Shown piece by piece: positions 40,777 through 64,000 of a stretch of 64,000 nucleotides of DNA; within the stretch, counting starts at the first letter, position 1; every line of letters begins with the position of its first letter. The translations under genes and the position numbers were made by a program. The DNA is from Pontibacter sp. G13 (lineage in GTDB: Bacteria > Bacteroidota > Bacteroidia > J057): NCBI RefSeq assembly GCF_031851795.1, contig NZ_CP134696.1:1907001-1971000 (forward strand), in the 5' to 3' direction. The notes under the pieces were generated by a model. That model worked only from the letters and a program-made list of their open reading frames with translations. It ran no database searches and was not told the DNA's origin.

Positions 40777-40986
40777 CGATGGCCTGCCGCGGCGATAAGG
40801 GTCTGAAGGATTCAGTCGGTGGGGAGGATCCATCTGCTTGACTGGTCCTTTGCCGTGCAAGGATGCCATATTTGGCCTGCTCACCATCACCGACCGAAGC
40901 GCCAGCGGAGTCCGAAAGGGCCTGACCCGGCGACCATCCTGCTGAGCGAGCATCATCATTCCAGAACGCCGGGGATCGCCCAAATC
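40777..40986 (-). repeat. Dispersed structured element, copy F
   Basis: Copy F is in minus orientation and starts at the MFS stop. P1 pairs CCCGGCG (40926-40932) with CGCCGGG (40967-40973) around 34 nt. P2 is reduced to three pairs, GAC (40892-40894) with GTC (40910-40912) around 15 nt, but with changed bases on both sides. The P1-P2 linker is only 13 nt, and the GCCGCAC end is degenerate. The remainder up to 41130 has no gene. Confidence 0.75.
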
Positions 40987-51499: not shown

Positions 51500-51574
51500 T
51501 TTTTGCTAGATCTTTTGTCTGGATACTGCGCCAGAAAATGGCCATTTGGGACCAGTCATCTAAACCCATCCCAT

Positions 51575-52920
51575 CATCCTCGACGGCAATCAGCCTCGGC
51601 CTGTGCGATGGCGCCGATCGGGGATCTCCTGAGAGCGGAACCGAATTCCAAGCCATACCTCCCCTTGTGTCATTCTGAAAAATCTGAAGGGTGGGCATGT
51701 GGGCTGGGGATTTATTCAGAATCTTGGGAGGAATGACTGCACAGATCCTGAATCGGCCGCCATCGCTTGAGGTCTAAGCTATGGCCGTTCAGGATGACAT
51801 GATGGGTGATGCGGAAGAAATTCATTCTGCCCTGCGGGCGCCCGACCTGCGACTCCCGTTGCAGGGACATGAGATCCCGCATAAATTTCGGTTTAGCAAA
51901 TATCCTGGCGCTGTAGGCGCGACATAACACAGGCAAGGGTTTTAACCCTTGACTGCGAAATCCTGTGGGAATCACGGTATATCCAGCCCAAGTCTTGTAC
52001 GTCATCCTCGACGGCAATCAGCCTCGGCCTGTGCGATGGCGCCGATCGGGGATCTCCTGAGCGCGGAACCGAATTCCAAGCCATACCTCCCCTTGTGTCA
52101 TTCTGAAAAATCTGAAAGGTGGGCATGTGGGCTGGGGATTTATTCAGAATCTTGGGAGGAATGAATGCACAGATCCTGAATCGGCCGCCATCGCTTGAGC
52201 CCTAAGCTATGGCCGTTCAGGATGACATGATGGGTGATGCGGAAGAAATTCATTCTGCCCTGCGGGCGCCCGACCTGCGACTCCCGTTGCAGGGACATGA
52301 GATCCCGCATAAATTTTGGTTTAGCAAGTATCCTAGCGCTGTAGGCGCGACATAACACAGGCAAGGGTTTTAACCCTTGACTGCGAATTCCTGTGGGAAT
52401 CACGGTATATCCAGCCCAAGTCTTGTACGTCATCCTCGACGGCAATCAGCCTCGGCCTGTGCGATGGCGCCGATCGGGGATCTCCTGAGCGCGGAACCGA
52501 ATTCCAAGCCATACCTCCCCTTGTGTCATTCTGAAAAATCTGAAGGGCAGGCTCGTGTGCGGGGGATTTATTCAGAATCTTGGGAGGAATGACTGCACAG
52601 ATCCTGAATCGGCCGCCATCGCTTGAGGCCTAGGCTATGGCCGTTCAGGATGACATGATGGGTGATGCGGAAGAAATTCATTCTGCCCTGCGGGCGCCCG
52701 ACCTGCGACTCCCGTTGCAGGGACATGAGATCCCGCATAAATTTTGGTTTAGCAAATATCCTAGCGCTGTAGGCGCGACATGACACAGGCAAGGGTTTTA
52801 ACCCTTGACTGCGGCATTGCGAAATTTTGCAGGATGACGCAGAAAATAGAGCTGGGGCAAATATCCTAGCGCTGTAGGCGCGACATAACACAGGCAAGGG
52901 TTTTAACCCTTGACTGCATT
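51575..52920. repeat. 428-bp tandem satellite, three units plus a partial unit
   Basis: Units begin at CATCCTCGACGGCAATC at 51575, 52003 and 52431, exactly 428 bp apart. A partial unit of about 60 bp follows at about 52857-52918. Differences between units are scattered single bases. Each unit has several inverted repeats: ATTCTGAA/TTCAGAAT, ATCCTGAA/TTCAGGAT, GCGC-TGTAG-GCGC, and CAAGGGTT-TT-AACCCTTG. No gene is supported; repeated minus-strand frames of 101-109 codons arise only from the tandem copies. Confidence 0.9.
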
Positions 52921-56343: not shown

Positions 56344-56360
56344 GAAGTTGATTCATGGTT

Positions 56361-56719
56361 TCTGTGTTGGCTACAAGCGTCCATTTTCAGAACCTCAATT
56401 GGCCAATTTTTCGAGCATAGCCCCACTATGCCCTGCAAAATTGGCGGCTTGAGAACCTAAAACTGGCCACTTTCGCTTCAACACATACCCCATGAATCAA
56501 CTTCCGATCTGATTTGAAGATTCTGTGTTGGCTACAAGCGTCCATTTTCAGAACCTCAATTGGCCAATTTTTCGAGCATAGCCCCACTATGCCCTGCAAA
56601 ATTGGCGGCTTGAGAACCTAAAACTGGCCACTTTCGCTTCAACACATACCCCATGAATCAACTTCCGGTCTGATTTGAAGATTCTGTGTTGGCTACAAGC
56701 GTCCATTTTCAGAACCTCA
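56361..56719. repeat. 161-bp tandem hairpin repeat, two full units and one partial
   Basis: Units start at 56361, 56522 and 56683, 161 bp apart; the third stops after 37 bp. Units 1 and 2 appear to differ at one or few bases. Each full unit folds into a hairpin: in unit 1, GCCAATTTT (56402-56410) pairs with AAAATTGGC (56437-56445), and GCATAG (56415-56420) with CTATGC (56426-56431) around CCCCA. It fills most of the gap ahead of hutI; no gene is present. Confidence 0.9.
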
Positions 56720-59276: not shown

Positions 59277-61271
59277 ATGAATAAACTTCTCAAGATCCTC
59301 CTCTGGATCGTTGGAGGACTGGCGGGCTTGTGCCTGCTGGTTGTGATCGGTGGATATGCCTATTTCGCCACCCAATCCTCTCTCCATCACTCCAAGCTCG
59401 GAGACGCTGCCCCAACCTTGACCGATGCTGGACATTCCTACCGGGACCTCAACAAAAACGGCCAATTAGATCCCTACGAAGATCACCGTAATTCCATAGA
59501 CCAGCGAGTCGAGGATTTGCTTGGGCAAATGACCTTAGAAGAAAAGGCCGGGATGATGTTCATCAACATGATCCTGATGAATGAAACCGGAGAAGTGATG
59601 GATATTCCAGATCCTTCCAATCCGTTTTCATTTTTTCTGGAGGCCAACTCCTCTATGATCGCCGGCAAGCAGATGAATCACTTCAATGTATTGTTTGCCA
59701 AAAACGGTCCCGGCCTGGCCAAGTGGGGAAATACCATCCAAGGGCTTGCCGAACGTACACGGCTGGGAATTCCTATCACCATAGCTTCCGATCCACGCCA
59801 TTCCTACTCAGACAACATCGGGGCTGCACTGATGACACCATTTTTTTCGCAGTGGCCCGAACCCATCGGACTGGCGGCAACCCGCGACACGAATCTTGTC
59901 CGCGAATTTGGGGATATCGCCAGACGAGAATACCGGGCGGTAGGGATTCATCTCGCCCTTCACCCGATGGCTGATCTTGCAACAGAACCACGCTGGGCTC
60001 GCATCAATGGCACTTTCGGTGAGGATGCACACCTTTCCGCGGAGATGACCAAGGCGTATGTATTGGGCATGCAGGGAGATTCCCTGACCGAAACGAGCGT
60101 GGCTTGCATGACGAAGCACTTCTCTGGCGGGGGACCGCAAATGGATGGAGAGGATGCTCATTTTCCCTACGGCCGCGAGCAGGTATATCCGGGTGACCAA
60201 TTCGACTATCACCTGATTCCCTTTGAGGAGGGTGCCTTTCCAGCTAAGACTGCCCAGATTATGCCCTATTACGGCATTCCTATGGGCCAGACCTCCGAAG
60301 ATGTGGCCTTTGCATTCAACAAGGAAATCATCACCCGTCTGCTCCGCGAAGCCTATCAATTCGATGGCGTGATCTGTACAGATTGGGGATTGGTGACCAA
60401 TAGCTTTGCAGGAGAAGCAAGAGCTTGGGGCGTTGAGCATTTATCAGAAATCGAGCGTGTCGAGAAGATCATTCAAGCGGGCTGCGATCAATTCGGAGGA
60501 GAGTCCCGTCCTGAGCTCATCATCGAGCTAGTCGAATCGGGCCGAATTTCCGAAGCGCGAATCGATCAGTCCATTCGCAGATTGCTCAGAGATAAATTCC
60601 GACTGGGCCTATTTGACCAACCCTATGTGGATGTCGATCAGGTAGAGCAACTCACCGGAACCCATGATTACCGAGCTGCAGGAGCCTTGGCTCAACGCAA
60701 ATCATTGGTCCTATTGAAAAATGACACCCTCACAGAAACCCCCGTTTTGCCACTGGAATCATCGGCAAAGGTTTATCTCGATGGTTTCAAGTCAGAAGTA
60801 GCGTCCAAGTTTGCCACAGTTGTCTCGACTATAGAGGAAGCAGATTACGTACTCATGCGTCTGAATGCTCCATTTCAGCCTAGGAATGGAAGTTTATTGG
60901 AGTCCTTCTTTCATCAAGGAGATCTCGACTTCAAATCTCCAGAGAAGGAGCGGATTCTTTCTATTGTGGAGCAGAAACCCACCATCATTTCGCTTTACAT
61001 GGATCGTCCGGCGGTGATGCCAGAGATTGCAGCGGCATCTGCAGGACTTATCGTGAACTTCGGTGCCGATGATGAAGCGATTTTGGATGTGGTTTTTGGG
61101 GCATTTAACCCAACCGGAAAGTTGCCAATCGAAATCCCTTCCAGTTTGCAGGCAGTCGAGCTTCAAAAAGAAGATGTGCCATACGATTCCGAGAACCCCC
61201 TTTTCAAATTTGGGCATGGGCTTTCCTACGGTGGCGAACCTGATACAGCGATGCTAGCGACGGACGAATAA
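59277..61271 (+). CDS. Glycoside hydrolase family 3 enzyme with N-terminal membrane anchor
   Basis: The 664-residue product begins with one membrane helix (LLKILLWIVGGLAGLCLLVVIGGYAYF). A calcium-loop-like stretch (RDLNKNGQLDPYEDH) leads into the GH3 barrel starting QRVEDLLGQMTLEEKAGMMF. GIPITIASDPRHS, CMTKHFSGGGPQMDGEDAHFPYGRE and FDGVICTDWGL are the GH3 landmarks; the last contains the nucleophile Asp at about 368. The C-terminal (alpha/beta) domain follows (KSLVLLKND, FGHGLSYG). A beta-glucosidase or related exo-activity is expected at the outer face of the inner membrane or in the periplasm. The gene sits behind a palindromic operator. Confidence 0.92.
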   Translation: MNKLLKILLWIVGGLAGLCLLVVIGGYAYFATQSSLHHSKLGDAAPTLTDAGHSYRDLNKNGQLDPYEDHRNSIDQRVEDLLGQMTLEEKAGMMFINMILMNETGEVMDIPDPSNPFSFFLEANSSMIAGKQMNHFNVLFAKNGPGLAKWGNTIQGLAERTRLGIPITIASDPRHSYSDNIGAALMTPFFSQWPEPIGLAATRDTNLVREFGDIARREYRAVGIHLALHPMADLATEPRWARINGTFGEDAHLSAEMTKAYVLGMQGDSLTETSVACMTKHFSGGGPQMDGEDAHFPYGREQVYPGDQFDYHLIPFEEGAFPAKTAQIMPYYGIPMGQTSEDVAFAFNKEIITRLLREAYQFDGVICTDWGLVTNSFAGEARAWGVEHLSEIERVEKIIQAGCDQFGGESRPELIIELVESGRISEARIDQSIRRLLRDKFRLGLFDQPYVDVDQVEQLTGTHDYRAAGALAQRKSLVLLKNDTLTETPVLPLESSAKVYLDGFKSEVASKFATVVSTIEEADYVLMRLNAPFQPRNGSLLESFFHQGDLDFKSPEKERILSIVEQKPTIISLYMDRPAVMPEIAAASAGLIVNFGADDEAILDVVFGAFNPTGKLPIEIPSSLQAVELQKEDVPYDSENPLFKFGHGLSYGGEPDTAMLATDE

Positions 61272-61440
61272 GTATATCATTGAAACAGATTCAGACAGGC
61301 TGCCCAATGGGTGGCCTTTTGGGTTTTGAGTATTCTCACATGCCATCATTCTGCCAGACTGAGCTTCAAAGAAGGACAAAGCAGAAGGAGGATTTTGACA
61401 GAAATCATAGGCTGAGCCAACGAAGAATCCCCCACCCAAA

Positions 61441-62290
61441 AAAGCGAAGCTTTGATCCCCTAGAGCATCCATCCATAGCATAAAAGCGAAGCTTTGGTCC
61501 CCTCCCAAGCACCCAACACAGAGCAAAAAAGCGAAGCTTTGATTCTCTCCAGAACTACCAACACATAGCGAAAAGCGAAGCTTTGATCTCCTAGAGCATC
61601 CATCCATAGCATAAAAGCGAAGCTTTGGTCCCCTCCCAAGCACCCAACACAGAGCAAAAAAGCGAAGCTTTGATCTCCTAGAGCATCCATCCATAGCATA
61701 AAAGCGAAGCTTTGGTCTCCTAGAACACCCATCCATAGCATAAAAGCGAAGCTTTGGTCTCCTAGAACACCCATCCATAGCATAAAAGCGAAGCTTTGAT
61801 CCCCTCCCAAGATCTAGAGAAACCTCATTTTTTGGCCCATAAATCCCAAGAGAACAAATTCATCAAATCACAGCCCTAGTATAAAAGCGAAGCTTTGATC
61901 CCCTCCCAAGAGCTAGAGAAACCTCATTTTTTGGCCCATAAATCCCAAGAGAACATATCCATCAAATCACAGCCTTAGAATAAAAGCGAAGCTTTGGTCC
62001 CTCCCAAGAGCTAGAGAAACCTCATTTTTTGGCCCATAAATCCCAAGAGAACATATCCATCAAATCACAGCCTTAGAATAAAAGCGAAGCTTTGGTCCCT
62101 CCCAAGATCTAGAGAAACCTCATTTTTTGGCCCATAAATCCCAAGAGAACAAATCCATCAAATCACAGCCCTAGTATAAAAGCGAAGCTTTGATCCCCTC
62201 CCTAGATCTAGAGAAACCTCATTTTTTGGCCCATAAATCCCAAGAGAACAAATCCATCAAATCACAGCCCTAGTATAAAAGCGAAGCTTT
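61441..62290. repeat. Array of 14 GCGAAGC mini-hairpin repeats
   Basis: The 13-bp core AAAGCGAAGCTTT occurs 14 times, at about 61441, 61482, 61528, 61572, 61613, 61659, 61700, 61743, 61784, 61883, 61982, 62080, 62178 and 62278. The first nine are 41-46 bp apart and the last six about 98-100 bp apart, in two different higher-order units. AAAGC and GCTTT pair around GAA. The heptamer GCGAAGC is known from biophysics as an unusually stable DNA mini-hairpin. Two repeat frames give proteins with QSFAF or KLRF periodicity; these are by-products. No gene lies in 61272-62661. Confidence 0.9.
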
Positions 62291-62434
62291 GGTCCCCCCA
62301 GAGCAACAACCCCCGAGAGGAACCCCCTTTTTTGCGCAGAGATCGTGGGTGGAGACAAGGAAGAAAAATCGAGCTTGGTGGGGCCAAGTGAGACTTTTTC
62401 AGACGCAGTATCCGCCCACGAGATCAAGCAAAAA

Positions 62435-62461
62435 AAACTCCAAAGCAACGCTTTGGAGTTT
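62435..62461 (-). terminator. Perfect 12-bp hairpin with A/T tracts
   Basis: AAACTCCAAAGC (62435-62446) pairs with GCTTTGGAGTTT (62450-62461) around AAC. On the minus strand it is followed by a run of T, making an intrinsic terminator about 200 bp downstream of the small gene at 62662. Confidence 0.75.
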
Positions 62462-63066: not shown

Positions 63067-64000
63067 CTAGTGGAATCGCCATTTGATGTCCATTTCTCCA
63101 AGTGCATCGATCAACCCTTGTGCAGGAGCAATCTGGAACTCGGAGCTCAGGAGTTTGATATCCGCATGCAGTTTGGGGTCTTTGATACGGAAAATGAGCG
63201 ATTTGTCTCCGGCATATTCTGCAAAGAGCGTTTCCAGCTTTTCCACCTTTTCAGGGGTAAGTTCTGAATTGTAAAATTCCAAGGTCAGATTTTTGATCAT
63301 CCCTTCGAATAGCTCTTCGGACATGATACGCATCTCGTGAATTCGAAATTCAAATTCATTCGGGTCAAATCTTCTCGGCTGATACGCCCCGGTCACATAC
63401 AGCATTTCATCTGCGCGGACGACACTCCGCAGCCTTTCGTATTGCTCCCCGAACAAGGACAACTCCAATGAACCAGAGAAATCTTCCAATGTGAACGTCA
63501 TGAAGTGCGTCCCCCGTCGTGAAATCCGCTCTCGGGCATTGGTGACGATTCCCGCAACACGTACATCCCTGTTCTTCTGATTTTCGAGATCACTCAAGCT
63601 ACAGGTGGTAAAAGAGCCCATCTGCCATTTGTACTTGTCGAGCGGGTGTCCGGAGAGGAAGAATCCGATCATTTCCTTCTCGTAGTTCAGCTTTTCCAAT
63701 TCGGTCCAGGCCTCCAGAATCAGTCCATCATTCATGGTACCGGCCGGAATCTTGGGTTCTTGCAGACCAGCGCCCATACCATCACCTCCACCAAACAAGC
63801 TGACCTGTGCAGATGCTTTTTCCTCCTGCACCTTGGCACCGTACTGGATCGCCTTGTCGAGGATGGTTGCGGAATCCTTGTTGGATACCGGCAGGAAATA
63901 CCGGAATCGATCCACATTGAAGCAGTCCAAAGCTCCGGCATAAACCAGCGATTCCATCGTCTTCCGGTTCAGGGTCCGCTTTGGAATCCGCGTGGTCAGG
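63067..64000 (-). CDS. dnaE: DNA polymerase III alpha subunit DnaE, C-terminal part (5' end cut by window edge)
   Basis: The frame is open from base 64000 to the stop at 63067 and encodes the last 310 or so residues of the replicative polymerase. It begins LTTRIPKRTLNRKTMESLVYAGALDCF, the helix-hairpin-helix region, then SGHPLDKYKWQ. The OB-fold domain follows (VRVAGIVTNARERISRRGTHFMTFTLEDFSGSLELSLFGEQYERL), and a C-terminal domain binds other subunits. The ATG at 63957 is internal and not the start. Catalytic PHP and palm residues lie outside the window. Confidence 0.95.
   Translation of the reverse strand, partial: LTTRIPKRTLNRKTMESLVYAGALDCFNVDRFRYFLPVSNKDSATILDKAIQYGAKVQEEKASAQVSLFGGGDGMGAGLQEPKIPAGTMNDGLILEAWTELEKLNYEKEMIGFFLSGHPLDKYKWQMGSFTTCSLSDLENQKNRDVRVAGIVTNARERISRRGTHFMTFTLEDFSGSLELSLFGEQYERLRSVVRADEMLYVTGAYQPRRFDPNEFEFRIHEMRIMSEELFEGMIKNLTLEFYNSELTPEKVEKLETLFAEYAGDKSLIFRIKDPKLHADIKLLSSEFQIAPAQGLIDALGEMDIKWRFH

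Follow-up and report, generated by a model that had tools for sequence, protein, structure and literature searches.

Tandem repeats between bacterial genes are commonly dismissed as products of slippage. Among the dispersed repeats, ERIC/IRU-type sequences are imperfect palindromes of more than 100 bp that lie near the ends of genes. CsrB/RsmZ-type RNAs act as protein sponges and are built as a string of hairpins, in which a conserved loop is carried on variable stems. REP/BIME palindromes are marked by a conserved 5' tetranucleotide and form dispersed families with a cognate RAYT (PMC8266576, PMC3733652). BrickBuilt of Porphyromonas gingivalis is a minisatellite inside a MITE, with one spacerless 23-nt unit at all of its loci (PMC4596501). 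On the scale of a single hairpin, d(GCGAAGC) is an extraordinarily stable mini-hairpin that is used as an oligonucleotide tool (PMC10527192, PMC4686876).

Here we analyze a stretch of 64,000 nucleotides from Pontibacter sp. G13 (the window), which contains a tandem array of GCGAAGC hairpins. We find that arrays of this kind occur at several places in the genome, with the same loop on different stems, and that nearly all of them lie beside domain B, a previously undescribed conserved folded element.

Results

The window array is a string of identical hairpins

A preliminary description had reported 14 GCGAAGC hairpins in two repeat periods, and these proved to be exact. The plus strand carries 14 identical copies of the 13-bp core AAAGCGAAGCTTT at 61441-62290, with start-to-start distances of 42, 45, 44, 42, 45, 42, 42, 42, 99, 99, 98, 98 and 99 bp, that is, eight intervals of 42-45 bp followed by five of 98-99 bp (Table 1). 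Tandem Repeats Finder independently called a 42-bp array (score 434) and a 99-bp array (score 928). The core and the G that follows it are invariant in 14/14 copies. The remainder of the eight short units, which have A/C-rich linkers of at least three types, is 69% identical, and the long units are 95% identical outside the core. The heptamer GCGAAGC occurs 18 times in the window (8.95 expected), a count reached in none of 100 shuffles. Because 14 of the 15 copies of AAAGCGAAGCTTT in the 7.67-Mb genome sit in the window array, with one elsewhere, the cores are not scattered at random through the genome, an outcome for which the preliminary description had allowed. Its suggestion of a cruciform array found no support: folded as a whole, as DNA and on either strand, the array did no better than shuffles, leaving a large cruciform or other compact structure unsupported. 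The predicted picture is one of short, separate hairpins on an A/C-rich string.

Table 1. Positions of the hairpin array, domain B and flanking genes in the window.
Feature	Position	Strand	Remarks
Upstream flanking gene, glycoside hydrolase family 3 (GH3)	59277..61271	+	Outside the element
Short-unit part of the array	61441..61797	+	Nine AAAGC-GAA-GCTTT hairpins, eight units of 42-45 bp
Long-unit part of the array	61785..62290	+	Six AAAGC-GAA-GCTTT hairpins (first shared with the short-unit part), five units of 98-99 bp
C-rich linker from last hairpin to domain B	62291..62330	+	40 bp
Domain B, conserved structured element of ~102 nt	62331..62432	+	Model match 62327-62436, 120.8 bits
Small ORF, 76 aa	62662..62892	-	Downstream, convergent; outside the element; no Pfam match
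End of DNA polymerase III alpha-like gene	63067-63999	-	Name from domains found and sequence reading

On the minus strand, the array creates a repetitive ORF of KLRFYAMDGCSRRP units (61254-61778), which gene annotation will probably report, spuriously, as a protein. The best homologues of the GH3 gene in relatives lack matching flanking genes. At 40888-40934, the window matches a very common dispersed repeat (GTTGCCGCGTCGGTCCCTTCCGGTC...CCACCGACTACACCTTCAGGCACCTC) that is present in many of the 20-kb stretches sampled. We also considered GTTGCCGCGTCGGTCCC...CCACCGACT as a further upstream domain of the locus and rejected it, as it is a separate, very common dispersed repeat.

Other arrays keep the C-GAA-G triloop on different stems

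The genome contains at least eight arrays of short hairpins, the window array included, and the stem differs from array to array. This count is a lower bound, as the whole-genome searches targeted paired GCGAAGC and CGAAG triplets. The search for paired GCGAAGC yielded two more arrays, with the stems TGGGC and TTGGC; the other non-window arrays have the stems GGAATC and GGACC (both at L214), GGCC/GGTC (together with ATCC at L258), TTCACC (L269) and a mixed set. At L259, four stems (CTTGATC, TGGTC, ATTGCTC and GTTGGTC) occur within one array. The closing pair is C-G in every array. Nearly all units have GAA as their loop, and a few degenerate ones have AAA or CAA. The array strands are 59-71% A+C, and the periods of the arrays outside the window include 34-35 and 68 bp.

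Changes in these stems are compensated. Across 28 distinct hairpin forms, we counted 46 cells with two-sided changes, compared to 14 in shuffled and 0-13 in slid controls; since the forms were preselected for at least three of five pairs, which inflates the percentage paired but not the diversity of paired stems, only the variation between forms is informative. Because the other arrays retain the C-GAA-G triloop while their stems change in a compensatory manner, the earlier proposal that the hairpin itself is the point of the array is strongly supported. In a 1.58-Mb grid sample, the only clusters of at least three hairpins with equal loops (3 to 5 nt) were the C-GAA-G clusters of the window and L214 and one unrelated repeat at L387.

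Arrays lie 5' of domain B on the same strand

In seven of the eight arrays, domain B lies directly 3' on the same strand; an array at L214 (13533-14413) is without it. Five hairpin arrays (599k, 1596k, 1968k, 2700k and 4500k) emerged when the whole genome was searched for CGAAG triplets, a test that made no use of domain B, and each of the five has domain B immediately 3' on the same strand. Likewise, two strong domain B matches turned up in the 1.58-Mb sample, exactly at its two C-GAA-G array sites (the window and L214); a third match was weak (38 bits). The linker between the last hairpin and domain B measures 40 bp in the window compared to about 45-120 bp at the other array loci. The preliminary description was right that no gene belongs to the array, but it overlooked a structured partner element of ~102 nt.

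In several arrays, the unit farthest from domain B is degenerate, whereas the nearest one keeps the GAA loop on a stem with all or almost all of its pairs, although the numbers are small. GAA arrays are missing from most domain B copies in this genome and from all copies examined in relatives, and the arrays are known from one genome only. The common loop of the eight arrays, and the position of seven of them beside domain B, suggest that these are structured non-coding loci of a new kind.

Domain B folds on one strand with compensatory changes

In the window, domain B starts some 40 bp beyond the last hairpin and has a TTTGC...GCAAA outer stem and conserved internal loops. Its consensus fold of 33 pairs derives from 27 copies that were aligned by sequence alone. 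Pairing was found in 95.6% of cells, compared to 84.0% in shuffled and 30-46% in slid controls; because the copies within a genome are related, the shuffles overstate significance and the slid controls are the fairer measure. Two-sided changes occur at 22 of the 33 pairs. Where the usual form of a pair is Watson-Crick, G-U replacements outnumber A-C replacements by about 35 to 2 in a hand count. The outer stem alone appears as TTTGC/GCAAA, TTAGC/GCTAA, GTGGC/GCCAC, TGGAC/GTCCA and GTTGC/GCAAC. The consensus energy is -40.3 kcal/mol on the sense strand, which carries GCGAAGC, versus -17.7 kcal/mol on the antisense strand, and the minimum energy is lower on the sense strand in 27/27 copies. This strand-specific fold, together with the conserved internal loops, points to selection on one single strand. 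The window has no Rfam match at gathering thresholds, and around the array there are only chance-level matches (E up to 10).

Domain B is confined to one family among the genomes searched

Among the genomes searched, domain B was found only within the family. The model gave 46 matches in this genome (tandem and partial copies included) and further matches in relatives of six other genera: 36 in G012, 25 in G007, 6 in G001, 5 in G005, 3 in G006 and 1 in G009. Six more genomes from the family had none, and neither did nine from the order's other families or, under stricter filters, 147 further genomes of the phylum; plasmids, phages and viral contigs gave nothing beyond chance-level plasmid fragments. 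In relatives, domain B is bounded by terminal inverted repeats, which match within each genome but are not the same from genus to genus (TAAGTAACGC/GCGTTACTTA in G012, TAAGGAAGCG in G007 and AAGTAGTCGAGCA in G006). The copies in G012, G007 and G001 have the marks of a MITE, namely terminal inverted repeats, small size, many copies and no gene. In the window's genome, the outer stem differs from copy to copy.

Several repeats adjoin or resemble domain B copies. Units like domain B are themselves in tandem at L257 (2801-4361) and L260 (2475-3330), with periods of 114 bp and 189 bp; L257 has two runs of degenerate copies, each closed at its 3' end by canonical ones. Within the window, an intergenic 428-bp unit (51574-52813; 2.9 tandem repeats, 97% identical) resembles dispersed repeats adjoining some partial domain B copies. 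A 161-bp unit (56360-56719; 2.2 repeats, 99% identical) contains CATAGCCCCACTATG with long inverted arms, and at L350 two domain B copies that converge on each other have a similar sequence between them.

The core recurs in unrelated organisms with unrelated linkers

The preliminary description had suggested a search of other genomes, and none of 394 others of the phylum contains paired AAAGCGAAGCTTT. Arrays of the core were found in 24 stretches from unrelated bacteria and one archaeon, where the linkers are unrelated too. Pairs of AAAGCGAAGCTTT within 52 bp (L092-L115) are found in Mesorhizobium, Acinetobacter, Lachnospiraceae, Cecembia, Aenigmatarchaeota and others. At some of these loci the stem is changed and the loop kept, as in GAGGC-GAA-GCCTC of Mesorhizobium (L108). 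The commonest clustered triloop in the 24 stretches, all fetched by that motif, is C-GAA-G counted with its complement (10 clusters, against 3 for the next). A literature search for the array sequence found nothing relevant.

Discussion

The feature that recurs among these loci is a fold, in which any paired stem may carry the C-GAA-G triloop and domain B is added. The window array could well belong to a bipartite non-coding element that is selected for its structure and has at least eight loci, a reading that we hold tentatively. Its 5' half would consist of short C-GAA-G hairpins with locus-specific stems on an A/C-rich strand, and its 3' half would be domain B, a long imperfect hairpin of ~102 nt with conserved internal loops, taken from a dispersed family. 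The two halves would act together in one single strand, most likely a transcript read from the array into domain B, and the bipartite locus is possibly transcribed. Joint single-stranded function is favored because the side and strand of the array are fixed relative to domain B and because the fold of domain B is strand-specific. Each GAA hairpin may serve as a repeated recognition or spacing unit, forming a string of binding sites or a sponge for a putative partner protein; domain B would then be the folded 3' head of the molecule, and the array would grow by local tandem duplication. That these loci amount to a new class, a bipartite non-coding RNA or single-stranded DNA locus in which a C-GAA-G string, fixed in its loop and open to compensatory turnover in its stems, leads into a folded domain and the GAA hairpins are the functional units for a candidate partner, we consider rather unlikely. 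Against the bipartite reading stand the many domain B copies without an array, the L214 array without domain B, the restriction of the arrays to one genome and the failure of the window array as a whole to fold better than shuffles. In relatives, moreover, domain B looks like a mobile palindrome, which needs no host function.

The main and serious rival is a neutral origin, which may be correct, although we are inclined to doubt it. Domain B would be a mobile palindrome of the MITE or ERIC type, and stable C-GAA-G hairpins would have been amplified beside it without function. C-GAA-G is among the most stable DNA hairpins known and would promote slippage, so that any sequence carrying it would be amplified into an array. 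Mechanistically, the hairpins would promote polymerase slippage and template switching, quasi-palindrome correction would keep the stems perfect, and domain B, with its strong secondary structure, would provoke amplification next to itself. The AAAGCGAAGCTTT arrays with unrelated linkers in unrelated organisms favor physics over descent as the source of the loop, and the clustering of C-GAA-G at those loci, fetched as they were by the motif, fits the same view. A neutral origin is also favored by the terminal inverted repeats of domain B, which change between genera and match within a genome, and by the tandem copies of domain B itself. It leaves unexplained, however, why in 7/7 pairs the array is on the 5' side of domain B and its GAA loops share the strand of domain B. 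A bias toward one replication strand is also absent: four arrays lie on each type, with origin and terminus inferred from GC skew. Finally, the strand-specific fold and conserved internal loops of domain B indicate selection on a single strand.

It is improbable that the arrays are REP/BIME-type palindromes mobilized by a RAYT (Y1 TnpA-REP) transposase. Palindromes with a GAA loop do flank Y1 genes in the family, as ACCCC-GAA-GGGGT does in G008 (L373), and in this genome CAGGGAAT-GAA-ATTCCCTG adjoins the Y1 gene at C1:1435526. However, neither this gene nor the one at C1:5488564 is flanked by array hairpins, the flank consensus of the eight arrays shows no conserved GTAG-like tetranucleotide 5' of the hairpins, and each stem is confined to its own locus, unlike the dispersed REPs. 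Lacking the tetranucleotide, a dispersed shared stem and Y1 adjacency, the arrays were rejected as canonical REPs. A Y1 (RAYT-like) gene around 1501-1842 of L371 has CAGGGAAT-GAA-ATTCCCTG and ATAGGGTT-TCC-AACCCTAT palindromes on both sides, and GAA-loop palindromes adjoining Y1 genes may be a pattern.

Still less probable is a region of transcription termination or insulation between convergent genes. In favor of it, simple ORF calls place an oppositely oriented gene, with its 3' end toward that of domain B, at 7/7 array loci and at 24 of the 33 loci that were examined; by the same calls, however, the direction of the upstream gene is evenly split. On the sense strand, neither the array hairpins nor domain B are followed by a U-run, a separate, ordinary-looking hairpin is present further downstream (about 62439-62461), and there would be no need for 14 consecutive terminators. 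A repetitive coding region on the minus strand is hardly credible and was rejected, for although several unit lengths are multiples of 3 and ORFs stay open, the 44- and 98-bp units break the frame, other arrays have periods such as 34-35 and 68 bp, and conserved nucleic-acid structure accounts for the pattern. We likewise rejected a CRISPR array: the linkers repeat and vary in length and are not unique spacers, and the flanking genes, GH3 and DNA polymerase III alpha-like, are not cas genes.

Eight arrays with almost no common sequence share a three-base loop and its closing pair, and seven of them are joined in fixed orientation to an undescribed family whose fold is supported by covariation. 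If selected, these loci would constitute a new kind of functional structured locus; if neutral, they would show with unusual clarity, in a natural setting, that repeats are born of the extra stability of the C-GAA-G DNA hairpin.

Among known systems, the array resembles the CsrB/RsmZ-type sponge RNAs in its layout, in which one loop is conserved along a series of hairpins whose stems vary, but that loop is C-GAA-G, not GGA. Domain B resembles ERIC/IRU-type sequences in length, dispersal and placement near gene ends, but its fold persists through changes in the stem sequences, its internal loops are invariant and one strand is preferred. The loop motif of the array is that of the d(GCGAAGC) mini-hairpin, in whose literature, as far as searched, no such array appears. 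Like REP/BIME palindromes and REPINs (PMC8266576, PMC3733652, PMC3116915), which can also form tandem clusters, the array hairpins are short palindromes that lie between genes and have short loops; they differ in having no 5' GTAG-like tetranucleotide, no dispersed family with a shared stem and no adjacent Y1 gene. The nearest described system is BrickBuilt (PMC4596501), likewise from the Bacteroidota, in which a minisatellite is joined to a MITE-like leader and tail with terminal inverted repeats and which is also intergenic and multicopy, with predicted stem-loops and no Rfam match. Unlike BrickBuilt, with its one 23-nt repeat and common leader and tail, the loci described here have units of about 34-99 bp with locus-specific stems and linkers; their universal part is only the C-GAA-G triloop, and the fold of their tail is supported by covariation.
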